Positions 2,782-18,950 of a stretch of 64,000 nt of DNA are shown here, in pieces. The position numbers and the translations under genes were made by a program. Source of the stretch: Planctomycetota bacterium (lineage in GTDB: Bacteria; Planctomycetota; UBA8108; UBA1146); contig JAAZXB010000009.1 in NCBI GenBank assembly GCA_014240375.1, positions 80,405-144,404 of the forward strand, read 5' to 3'. The number at the start of each line of letters is the position of its first letter. Position 1 is the stretch's first letter. Under the pieces are notes generated by a model. The model did no database searches, was not told where the DNA came from, and worked only from the letters and a program-made list of their open reading frames with translations.

Positions 2782-3276
2782 ATGACGGCCAAAGGAAAGT
2801 CTCAACTTTCACATACCGATGACGAGGGTAACGCACGAATGGTCGATGTCGGAGACAAGGCCGTGACCGACCGCCGCGCTGTCGCCGAGGGCATGATCCG
2901 CATGCAAGTCTCGACCTTGCGCCTGATCATCGATGGTGAAGTACAAAAAGGGGATGTGCTGGCAGTGGCGAGGCTCGCAGCCATCCAGGGTGCAAAGCAG
3001 ACCTCGAACTTGATACCACTCTGCCATCCTCTGCCACTCGACAATGTCGCCGTGGAGATGGAAGAGGGTGAAGACGACGATGGCGGGTGGGTTCGCATGT
3101 CCGTGACGACACGAGTCACCGCGCGTACCGGCGTCGAGATGGAAGCACTGTCGGCAGTGTCGGTCGGTTTGTTGACCATCTACGATATGTGCAAGGCGGT
3201 CGATCGAGGGATGGAGATTTGCGGTGTGCGATTGCTCGAGAAATCGGGTGGCCGCAGTGGAGACTGGACTCGCTGA
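2782..3276 (+). CDS. moaC: Cyclic pyranopterin monophosphate synthase MoaC
   Basis: [28 protein letters not shown]...[13 protein letters not shown]...[29 protein letters not shown]. Confidence 0.95.
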
Positions 3277-3303
3277 ACTGATTTTTCCTGGAGGAAACAA
3301 CGG

Positions 3304-4170
3304 ATGGCACAGATCATCGATGGCAAGGCACGGGCGAAAGAGATTCGCAAGCAACTGAAAGGGCGAGTGCACGACTTCCAGGTCGAGACTGGCCACCCTC
3401 CCGGGCTGGGAGTGATCCTGGTGGGAGAAGATCCGGCCAGTGCCGTCTATGTGAGAAACAAGGAGCGGGCCTGCGCCAGGACCGGAATTCGCTCCTTCCA
3501 CCATCCACTGGCGAAAGACGCGACCCAGCAACAACTGGAGCAACTGATCGACCAGCTCAATGAGGATCCACAAGTGCACGGGATCCTCCTCCAGTTACCG
3601 TTGCCTTCGCACCTCGATGCCGAGCCTCTGTTGTTGAGGATCTCTCCCGACAAGGATGCGGACGGCTTCCATCCGGTCAATGCCGGCAGACTCGCGGTAG
3701 GACAGCCGACTTTCGTTCCCTGTACTCCGCTCGGTTGTATCGATCTGCTCCAGACTGCAGGAGTTACCCTTCAGGGAGCCGATGCTGTGGTGGTAGGTAG
3801 ATCCAACATCGTCGGAAAGCCGGTCGCTCAACTGTTGCTTGCAGAGGGCGCAACGGTGACGATCTGTCACTCGAAGACCCAGAACCTGGCCGCACACATC
3901 GGGCGTGCGGATGTGGTGGTGGCCGCGGTCGGTCGTCCAGAGATGATCCGAGGAGAATGGATCAAACCTGGAGCCGCGGTGATCGATGTGGGAATCAATC
4001 GAATCGACGACGGTTCGATCGTCGGAGACGTCGAATTTGAGGCCGCCAGTGAACGCGCCGGGTGTATCACTCCCGTACCTGGTGGTGTCGGCCCGATGAC
4101 GGTGGCCAAATTGCTCGAGAACACCCTTGCGGGAGCGATTCGGTTCGAGGAGTGCAAACTACAAGAGTGA
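3304..4170 (+). CDS. folD: Bifunctional methylenetetrahydrofolate dehydrogenase/cyclohydrolase
   Basis: GLGVILVGEDPASAVYVRNKERAC, GILLQLPLPSHLD, DKDADGFHPVNAGRL, TPVPGGVGPMTVAKLLENT. Confidence 0.97.
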   Translation: MAQIIDGKARAKEIRKQLKGRVHDFQVETGHPPGLGVILVGEDPASAVYVRNKERACARTGIRSFHHPLAKDATQQQLEQLIDQLNEDPQVHGILLQLPLPSHLDAEPLLLRISPDKDADGFHPVNAGRLAVGQPTFVPCTPLGCIDLLQTAGVTLQGADAVVVGRSNIVGKPVAQLLLAEGATVTICHSKTQNLAAHIGRADVVVAAVGRPEMIRGEWIKPGAAVIDVGINRIDDGSIVGDVEFEAASERAGCITPVPGGVGPMTVAKLLENTLAGAIRFEECKLQE

Positions 4171-15951: not shown

Positions 15952-17040
15952 ATGAGCAATAGTTTCGGAGAGTACCTCCGCATCACTACCTGGGGCGAAT
16001 CTCATGGCCCGGGAATCGGCGTCGTGATCGACGGGCTGCCAGCCGGTGTCCCCGTCTCCATCGAGACGATCGCGGCAGATCTGGCGAGGCGTCGACCCGG
16101 TGGAGATCTGGCCTCATCTCGAAAAGAGCCAGACACACCAAAAATTCTCTCGGGAGTTCTCGATGGTAAGACTCTCGGTTCACCGCTGGCGATCTGGATC
16201 GAATCGATCGATGCGCGTTCCGAAGATTACGATGAGATGGCCGATCTCTACCGGCCTGGTCATGCCGATTTCACCACCGAGGCACGTTATGGTCATCGCG
16301 ACCGCCGTGGTGGAGGTCGTGCCAGCGCGCGCGAAACCGCCGCTCGAGTCGCAGCAGGTGCAGTGTGTCGAGTGATGCTGGCTCGAGAGTATGGCATCGA
16401 AATCATCGGCTGGGTCGATGAGTTGTCCGGGAATCGTGCAGAGGTCGACCCAGCGACGGTCGACTCCGAGGCGGTAGAACTCTCGCCGGTGCGCTGCCCC
16501 GCGCTCGCCACCAGTAGTTCTTTTGTCGACCAGATTGAACGGGCCAGGGAGGCGGGAGATAGCCTCGGTGGTTGGGTCGGGGTGGTGGCTCGCGGAGTGC
16601 CTGCCGGGTGGGGTGATCCCGTTTTCGCCAAGATGAAGTCCTTGCTCGGGGCGGCCATGTTGTCGATTCCGGCAGCGATGTCGCTGGAACTGGGGGACGG
16701 AATCGCCGCCACCGGTCGCACTGGAAGCGAAAACAACGACAGCTTTACTTCCGATGAGTCGGGCACCATCCACCAGCGGACCAATCGATCGGGCGGGATG
16801 CAGGGAGGGATCACCAGCGGTGCTCCCCTCTGGCTGCGGGTCGGATTCAAACCCACATCGACCATCGGTACCACTCAGGAAACGGTCAACCGGTCGGGAA
16901 CTGGAATCCAATTTGAAGGAAAGGGTCGTCACGACCCCTGTGTGTTACCGCGGGCAGTGGCCATCGTCGAGGCGATGATGGCGTTGGTGCTCGTCGATCG
17001 GATGTTGGCGAGGAGGGCGACTCCTCCTGCGAGTGGATAG
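15952..17040 (+). CDS. aroC: Chorismate synthase
   Basis: MSNSFGEYLRITTWGESHGPGIGVVIDGLPAGV; RYGHRDRRGGGRASARETAARVAAGA; ORF-track start 15700 is too far upstream. Confidence 0.96.
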   Translation: MSNSFGEYLRITTWGESHGPGIGVVIDGLPAGVPVSIETIAADLARRRPGGDLASSRKEPDTPKILSGVLDGKTLGSPLAIWIESIDARSEDYDEMADLYRPGHADFTTEARYGHRDRRGGGRASARETAARVAAGAVCRVMLAREYGIEIIGWVDELSGNRAEVDPATVDSEAVELSPVRCPALATSSSFVDQIERAREAGDSLGGWVGVVARGVPAGWGDPVFAKMKSLLGAAMLSIPAAMSLELGDGIAATGRTGSENNDSFTSDESGTIHQRTNRSGGMQGGITSGAPLWLRVGFKPTSTIGTTQETVNRSGTGIQFEGKGRHDPCVLPRAVAIVEAMMALVLVDRMLARRATPPASG

Positions 17041-17049
17041 GAGAAGCGG

Positions 17050-17622
17050 ATGCCCTGGATCGAACCCCTTTCACCAGAGCAAGACGAGAGTGGCCTGCTC
17101 GACCGCATCTATGCCGGATCTCGATCACGATCGGGAGAAGTGGCCCAGATCATCCAGGTGATGTCTCCTCGGCCAGACCTTCTGGAACCCTTTCTCGAAC
17201 TCTACATCCGTCTGATGCAGGGGACATCCGGACTGACACGGGCAGAGCGAGAATGGGTCGCAGTGCTGACCAGTCAGTACAACGATTGCCACTACTGAAT
17301 CCTCTCACACCTGCGAGATCTGGAGTCACTTCCTGGAAGTGCTGATCTCGTCCAATCGGTCCGGTCCGGGCCAGATGCTCTCGATCAACGAGCCAGTACC
17401 ATCGCTGCTTTTACCGAGAAGTTGACTCTCACTCCCTCGAAGATGAAGGAAACCGACATCGCATCACTCAGAGGGGTTGGATTGGATGACAGTTCGATTC
17501 TCGAGTTGGTTCATGTGATCGGTTTCTTCAACCACATCAATCGTGTGGCAGACTCGCTCGGTGTGGATCTGGAATCCTGGATGGGTGAGAAGGGTACTGA
17601 ATCGGGTCTCTCCGCCGATTGA
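17050..17622 (+). CDS. AhpD-like / carboxymuconolactone-decarboxylase-family peroxidase-related protein, probable selenoprotein (CHYU), one in-frame TGA at 17296-17298
   Basis: ORFs 17050..17298 and 17422..17622 share a frame. Continuous reading: MPWIEPLSPEQDES...TSGLTRAEREWVAVLTSQYNDCHY[U]ILSHLRDLE...LTPSKMKETDIASLRGVGLDDSSILELVHVIGFFNHINRVADSLGVDLESWMG, which matches the family on both sides of the TGA. Confidence 0.82.
17313..17351 (+). promoter_or_regulatory. Candidate bacterial SECIS hairpin
   Basis: GCGAGATC...GATCTCGT outer stem (one G-U), internal loop TGGAGT/CT, CACTTC-CTG-GAAGTG inner stem; apical loop begins 34 nt after the TGA. Confidence 0.45.
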
Positions 17623-17723
17623 AACAATACTTCTGAAAGACTATCATGGAGGATCAGGGATCCAGTGTGCCAGCGATGGCTTCTGCGGGTCCACAAAAGT
17701 GCTGCGAAGGAAATGAGAACCGG

Positions 17724-18950
17724 ATGAGGTCAGGACCGGATCCTGTGGATCGACTGCTGAATCGTATTCGCCTGCGAAGAAGACTTCGTCAGGTGATGGG
17801 GCATTCCAGTAATGCTCTGGCGTTGGCGTTGTTCTCGTGGGCGATTCTGATTCTCTCGCAGCGCATGTTCAGCATCGGTGTCAGCGAGACTCTGGAAATG
17901 ACGCTTCCCCTCGGCGTCTTCCTGGTGGTGATCACCGCAGCGTTCCTGTCGGTTCGGAAGTCGCGTCTCGGCGAGGCGGTCGAGGCGGAGCGGGGGGGGC
18001 GGATTCCCCAGACCATTTCCACCTCGTTGCTGGCTCGTGACGAAGGATTCAGTGAAGAGGTGGCCGACAAGATCCTGGGTGATGCCTCTCGGATGGCTGA
18101 AGGGGTCGATCCACAGCGAGCGATTGCGCTGGGGAGGCCACGAAACCCATGGCGGGTAGTGGTGGCGATTTGCGCGTGCCTCGCTGCAGTTTCGTTCCCA
18201 ACCTATGACCTGCTCGGAATTGAAGAAGAGAAGTTGAGCAGGAAGAAGGAAGTGGATCGAACCGCCAGAAAAGTGGCCTCACTGGAGCGACGTCTGAGAG
18301 ATGTGACTCAACTCGCAGAACGTCACCAGATCGATCCAGAGACACAAAAACTGCTCAAGATCATCTCTCGCAAGCCGAAGCCTTCGGTGGCGGAGAAGGG
18401 CCGCGCCGCGCCACAGAGTTCGCCGCGGAAGGCCGCCCTGCAGAAGACCCGGAAGGATCGGAGCCAGGTGGCGAATCGCATGACTCGAGCGGAACTCAAG
18501 TCTGCCAGAGCGACTGCGGATCGAGTGCGGCAGGCGGGTCAGCAGGAGGGCAGCGAGGATTCCGCAGCGGCAGAGGAACTGCAGAAGGCTCTGAAAAAAG
18601 GGCAACTGGGCCGTGCCGGGCAGGAACTGCAGAAGATGGCCAAGGCTGCGGCAAACGCCGGTGCCGAGGGGCAACAAGCGAGAGCGGATCTGGCCAAGAT
18701 GGCGGAAGCTCTGGGACTGTCCGATGCCCTGAAATCCAAGTTGAAAGATGAGAAGGGGTTGTCGCCAGAGGATCTGCAAAGGCTGTCGCAACAACTGGAT
18801 CAACTGGCCAAGTTGATGAGGGAGAGCGATCTGCTCGATCATGCTCGAAAGCAGATCCAGTTCACCGAGGCAGAGTTGAGCGCCTTGCCTGCAGAGTGGC
18901 CCGACGGCCCACCACCGGAGATTTGCCCCGATTGCCTGGCGGGGACCTGA
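17724..18950 (+). CDS. Membrane protein with two N-terminal TM segments and a helical Lys/Gln-rich region, followed in frame by two TGAs and a C-terminal domain
   Basis: LALALFSWAILILS / LPLGVFLVVITAAFL hydrophobic segments, coiled coil, PPPEICPDCLAGT before TGA. Start (17646 or 17724) uncertain. Confidence 0.7.
   Translation: MRSGPDPVDRLLNRIRLRRRLRQVMGHSSNALALALFSWAILILSQRMFSIGVSETLEMTLPLGVFLVVITAAFLSVRKSRLGEAVEAERGGRIPQTISTSLLARDEGFSEEVADKILGDASRMAEGVDPQRAIALGRPRNPWRVVVAICACLAAVSFPTYDLLGIEEEKLSRKKEVDRTARKVASLERRLRDVTQLAERHQIDPETQKLLKIISRKPKPSVAEKGRAAPQSSPRKAALQKTRKDRSQVANRMTRAELKSARATADRVRQAGQQEGSEDSAAAEELQKALKKGQLGRAGQELQKMAKAAANAGAEGQQARADLAKMAEALGLSDALKSKLKDEKGLSPEDLQRLSQQLDQLAKLMRESDLLDHARKQIQFTEAELSALPAEWPDGPPPEICPDCLAGT

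Follow-up and report, generated by a model that had tools for sequence, protein, structure and literature searches.

AhpD-like selenoproteins with a CxxU motif have been described repeatedly. A survey of the Sargasso Sea in 2005 listed 27 of them (PMC1088965), the Global Ocean Sampling survey divided AhpD-like CxxU proteins into two families, of 299 and 70 members (PMC2398784), and a 2026 review places one such protein under TIGR01926 (PMC13188914). A 2016 paper reported selenoproteins from Planctomycetes (PMC4807772); our own literature search combining selenoproteins with Planctomycetota, judged by title and abstract, returned nothing relevant. As to the chemistry of the fold, the active-site Cys of Mycobacterium tuberculosis AhpD forms a sulfenic acid that is resolved by the neighbouring Cys, and sestrin2 uses the first Cys only (PMC4674687). 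For the related protein PA0269, peroxidase activity is described as no more than weak (PMC3141380).

Here we describe a gene of this kind in the genome of a marine member of the Planctomycetota (94.8% complete, with 120 contigs totalling 3.39 Mb), located in a window of 64,000 nucleotides, by which we mean the whole stretch of DNA that was analysed. An AhpD-like peroxidase-related selenoprotein is, with little doubt, the best overall explanation of the locus. It shares with the described family the TIGR01926 model, the CxxU motif, selenocysteine (Sec) at its second position and a downstream hairpin, and differs only in that hairpin, whose apical loop lies off the described consensus in this genus. 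Because the two ocean surveys and the 2026 review already describe AhpD-like CxxU proteins, this is not a novel family, and the gene is solidly placed as an ordinary new member of a known one. The sequence-only reading of the window had rightly noted AhpD-like selenoproteins from marine metagenomes, although the family is better known than it implied.

A split gene with an AhpD-type active site

The features of the locus are as follows.

15970 to 17040, plus strand: aroC (chorismate synthase), directly upstream; Pfam match of 405 bits
17039 to 17043, plus strand: AGGAG, a putative ribosome-binding site judged from its sequence, overlapping the aroC stop codon (17038 to 17040)
17050 to 17622, plus strand: predicted full selenoprotein gene, 190 aa with U83, AhpD-like / peroxidase-related, TIGR01926; identified by the family model and the conserved TGA
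17251 to 17253 and 17281 to 17283, plus strand: E68 and N78, both also invariant in 25 aligned orthologues
17287 to 17310, plus strand: active-site motif C80-H-Y-U83-I-L-S-H87 with the CxxU redox motif
17296 to 17298, plus strand: TGA codon probably read as Sec, second position of C-x-x-C; TGA in the same column in 33 loci, Cys in Cys homologues
17313 to 17351, plus strand: probable SECIS hairpin, apical loop CUG at 17333 to 17335, starting 34 nt after the TGA
17646 to 18950, plus strand: uncharacterised 434-aa protein, downstream; a neighbour conserved within the family

A single reading frame runs from the ATG at 17050 to a final TGA stop at 17620-17622, and is interrupted by one in-frame TGA at 17296-17298. 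The product is 82 aa long up to the first TGA and 190 aa long with read-through. The sequence-only reading had proposed that this TGA splits one gene with both halves in the same frame, that the gene fits the AhpD-like family, that the TGA occupies the second Cys of N-D-C80-H-Y-U83-I-L-S-H87, and that the truncated product has 82 aa, and all four points agree with what we found. The read-through product scores 125.3 bits against TIGR01926 (peroxidase-related enzyme; cut-off 81.8), which is matched by all 25 aligned orthologues as well, and reaches 29 bits with Pfam CMD, whose cut-off is 23, in addition to a match to the AhpD core domain and 42 bits for the sestrin family PF04636. Classical AhpD (TIGR00777) gave no match for the protein at E ≤ 0.001. 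The AhpD-related (seleno)protein model NF041238 has a related domain and Sec in its motif, but it is 357 positions long, and membership was ruled out by a score of 52 bits where 175 are required.

A gap of 9 nt separates the gene from aroC, which also precedes it in 15 of the 16 TGA-bearing relatives from the family and order. The two genes are likely co-transcribed; a functional tie to chorismate synthesis is not implied by this adjacency. Three more candidates came out of a screen of the window for other TGA-split genes. All lie on the minus strand; two overlap other genes by about one third, and the third (2927-3310) lies within a nearly gene-free gap.

E68, N78, C80, Y82, position 83 and H87 are invariant in the 25 aligned orthologues. 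The AhpD-type proton-relay set, composed of E, C, Y/H, C(U) and H at spacings 0/12/14/15/19, is found here as E68, C80, Y82, U83 and H87, which match position for position the relays of PA0269 (Glu36, Cys48, Tyr50, Cys51, His55) and M. tuberculosis AhpD (Glu118, Cys130, His132, Cys133, His137) (PMC3141380). An AlphaFold2 model with Cys in place of Sec (mean pLDDT 90, pTM 0.86) matches the all-helical AhpD-like fold of the AhpD/CMD/sestrin-A type, with TM scores of 0.77-0.83 to 6k40 (from D. radiodurans), 2oyo, 3c1l, 2pfx and 2prr, and of 0.78-0.83 to the four other than 2pfx. These five share the fold and can be aligned over nearly the whole protein, and 6k40, 2oyo and 3c1l carry Cys where the window protein has Sec; identity between the window protein and solved peroxidase-related AhpD-fold proteins is 23-31%. 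The sestrin A domain (PF04636) has the active-site Cys, Tyr and His in common with the window protein, whereas sestrin2, a large two-domain animal protein, has Leu where Sec stands here (PMC4674687).

We suggest that SelB with Sec-tRNA-Sec, directed by the adjacent downstream stem-loop, would recode codon 83 (UGA) and thereby insert Sec at the second position of CxxC. The selenolate would then attack a peroxide, most likely an organic hydroperoxide, C80 would resolve the resulting selenenic acid as a selenenylsulfide, and a thioredoxin-like partner would reduce the latter; both the order of attack by Sec and resolution by C80 and the nature of the reducing partner are presumed. Peroxidase activity itself is probable. 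It is less likely, but a serious possibility, that the selenoprotein has little such activity and acts instead as a thiol-disulfide oxidoreductase, as an AhpD-like adaptor of a peroxiredoxin, or on another substrate. M. tuberculosis AhpD has been described as an adaptor of AhpC (PMC3141380), many AhpC/thioredoxin-like proteins are encoded in the genome, and the debrominase Bmp8 has the same fold. However, every relay residue of the peroxidases that have been measured is retained, sestrin2 is an active alkylhydroperoxidase with one Cys (PMC4674687), and no peroxiredoxin gene is adjacent.

Conservation of the TGA and the selenocysteine machinery

Among 150 related genomes, including that of the window, homologues were found in 96, and a clear TGA-bearing homologue in 71. 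The alignment of the TGA comprises 33 distinct related loci (38 when the window's own copy and four duplicate records are included). In all 33 the TGA stands in the same column, at identities from 98-99% down to ~38%, flanked by a conserved C-x-Y before and a conserved xxxH after, and the protein sequence is conserved on both sides. Since the same TGA is present in every Sec orthologue read, down to ~38% identity, the split frame is not a chance event. Alignment with Cys homologues, a check that the sequence-only reading had proposed, puts C exactly at the TGA column in homologues from eight other genomes. After the TGA, third codon positions vary most in comparisons with G003 and G001. The second half is nevertheless conserved less strictly than the first, as 25 of 38 changed codons in the comparison with G001 are nonsynonymous. 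For homologues in five genomes (G112, G094, G129, G134 and G074), the match consists of two segments and leaves out the middle; these homologues may carry insertions or fast-evolving middles.

The genome encodes SelA, SelB and SelD, with profile scores of 530, 391 and 344 bits, respectively, and a tRNA-Sec called by both Rfam and ARAGORN. The search for sel genes suggested by the sequence-only reading therefore found the full set, and a genome-wide absence of the machinery, which that reading had named as grounds for abandoning its proposal, is not the case. The genes selA, selD and that for tRNA-Sec (L004, L047 and L006) are clustered on contig 32 of the genome (220694-223345), and selB lies ~160 kb away on the same contig. 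The selD gene has an in-frame TGA of its own (motif CAGU). A short contig (contig 81, 1920 bases) carries a second SelB fragment (L003), which shares 78% identity with the main SelB across 412 aa and is probably contamination of the metagenome-assembled genome (MAG) by a relative, or else a second SelB. Across genomes, SelB was found in 69 of the 71 that have a TGA-bearing homologue and in 6 of the 23 with Cys-only homologues (Fisher p = 7e-12, a value that overstates the evidence, as the genomes are related; the lists were transcribed by hand). Two genomes, G001 and G090, bear the TGA, yet no SelB was found in them above the cut-off, which may be due to MAG incompleteness.

The association of the TGA with SelB also bears on the reading of the locus as two proteins, in which the N-terminal product would have 82 aa and translation would start anew for the C-terminal part. 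TGA is the ordinary stop in this genome, and a TTG at 17422 could start a frame of 66 aa; however, the TGA tracks SelB, it falls on a catalytic residue with H87 just after, and the protein sequence is conserved from the TGA up to the TTG, so that we regard two proteins as very improbable. A pseudogene or a sequencing error, that is, a nonsense mutation or a TGC/TGT miscalled as TGA, is what a lone in-frame stop in an otherwise intact gene looks like, but it is excluded in practice and hardly credible because the same TGA occurs in four other genomes of the genus, across the phylum and in separately assembled MAGs, and both changes after the TGA relative to the near relative G004 are synonymous. 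General read-through or reassignment of TGA, although the codon is evidently decoded in frame here, is just as implausible given the full Sec machinery and the fact that TGA is the commonest stop in the window, ending 26 of its 38 long frames, which indicates that recoding is local and TGA has not been reassigned. Thus, we hold that the gene very probably encodes one selenoprotein, with the UGA decoded by actual incorporation of Sec.

At least eight other genes of the genome carry a TGA at a redox position. These are selD, a SelW-like gene (L048, motif CVQU) and six AhpC/thioredoxin-like genes, of which four have the motif UGPC (L053, L054, L055 and L057), one SUGAC (L051) and one TPGU (FTPGU; L050, where U replaces the usual Cys). 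The tally of at least nine candidates is a lower bound from a few family searches; the selenoproteome is large and surely undercounted.

The hairpin downstream of the TGA

According to the sequence-only reading, positions 17313-17351 form a hairpin of 39 nt whose CUG loop follows the TGA at a distance of 34 nt and which was judged not to be a textbook bSECIS match. Our folding bears out the position and the loop, and the judgement is correct, as neither of the first two positions of the CUG loop is G. The hairpin is the minimum free energy (MFE) fold, at -17.1 kcal/mol (dinucleotide-shuffle z of -2.86, with 2 of 200 shuffles as good). Synonymous-codon shuffles of the hairpin in this gene alone gave p values of about 0.11 and 0.08; given the protein sequence, it is thus only mildly unusual. 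The spacing, stem and energy agree with the bSECIS model, and only the G rule fails. A rule-conforming fold exists in the gene but is weak (-7.5 kcal/mol). Folding with a loop that opens on G (GUCACU or AGUCACUUC) was considered and rejected, as it is much weaker than the CUG hairpin and is not kept in G002 (L013). Some putative bacterial SECIS elements are stated not to fit the bSECIS model (PMC13188914).

A structure signal just after the TGA is clear across 31-34 orthologues, and weaker or absent elsewhere in the gene. For the best G-loop hairpin, the mean energy over 31 orthologues is -14.7 kcal/mol after the TGA, whereas five other offsets give means of -4.5 to -9.6 kcal/mol. The energy after the TGA is also lower than that of synonymous shuffles (mean z -0.98, s.e.m. 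0.16). The MFE after the TGA in 34 orthologues has a mean z of -1.43, as compared with -0.63 to +0.16 elsewhere in the gene. Outside the genus, a conforming fold is found in 28 of 29 orthologues, several of them with a classical GGUC or GGUCU loop, although this test is permissive and hairpin energies are the better guide. Strong conforming hairpins (-13.5 to -21.2 kcal/mol) also follow the TGA in six of the eight other Sec genes of the genome, with the loops GGUCG, GGUC (twice), GUC, CGUGA and CGUGCC. The remaining two genes are, like the window gene, without a strong textbook SECIS: one of the UGPC genes (L055) has a weaker conforming hairpin (-9.1 kcal/mol), and the G-loop hairpin of the SelW-like gene (L048) reaches only -6.2 kcal/mol, short of the rule.

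Within the genus, the apex C-C[U/C]G-G is conserved in all five genomes. Between the genome of the window and G002, two upper-stem pairs switch in both partners (U-A becomes G-C, and A-U becomes G-C); G001 has a G-U intermediate at one of the switched pairs, with no upper-stem pair broken. These compensatory changes, drawn from three distinct sequences, are suggestive of a stem maintained within the genus. It is a modest oddity that the genus departs in its loop from nearly all relatives and from most Sec genes of its own genome, which have ordinary G loops.

Significance for the family and the lineage

What is new here amounts to two small additions, the wide spread of the family in Planctomycetota and the unusual loop. 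If the reading built on that loop is true, which is conceivable but on balance somewhat doubtful, the published loop rule would be too narrow; the loop in any case offers a concrete test of what SelB needs for recognition. A gene that looks truncated, and that annotation pipelines are likely to shorten, would in 71 of the 150 genomes searched be one selenoprotein. Moreover, the apparent richness of this genome in selenoproteins suggests that the lineage makes heavy use of selenium for redox work.
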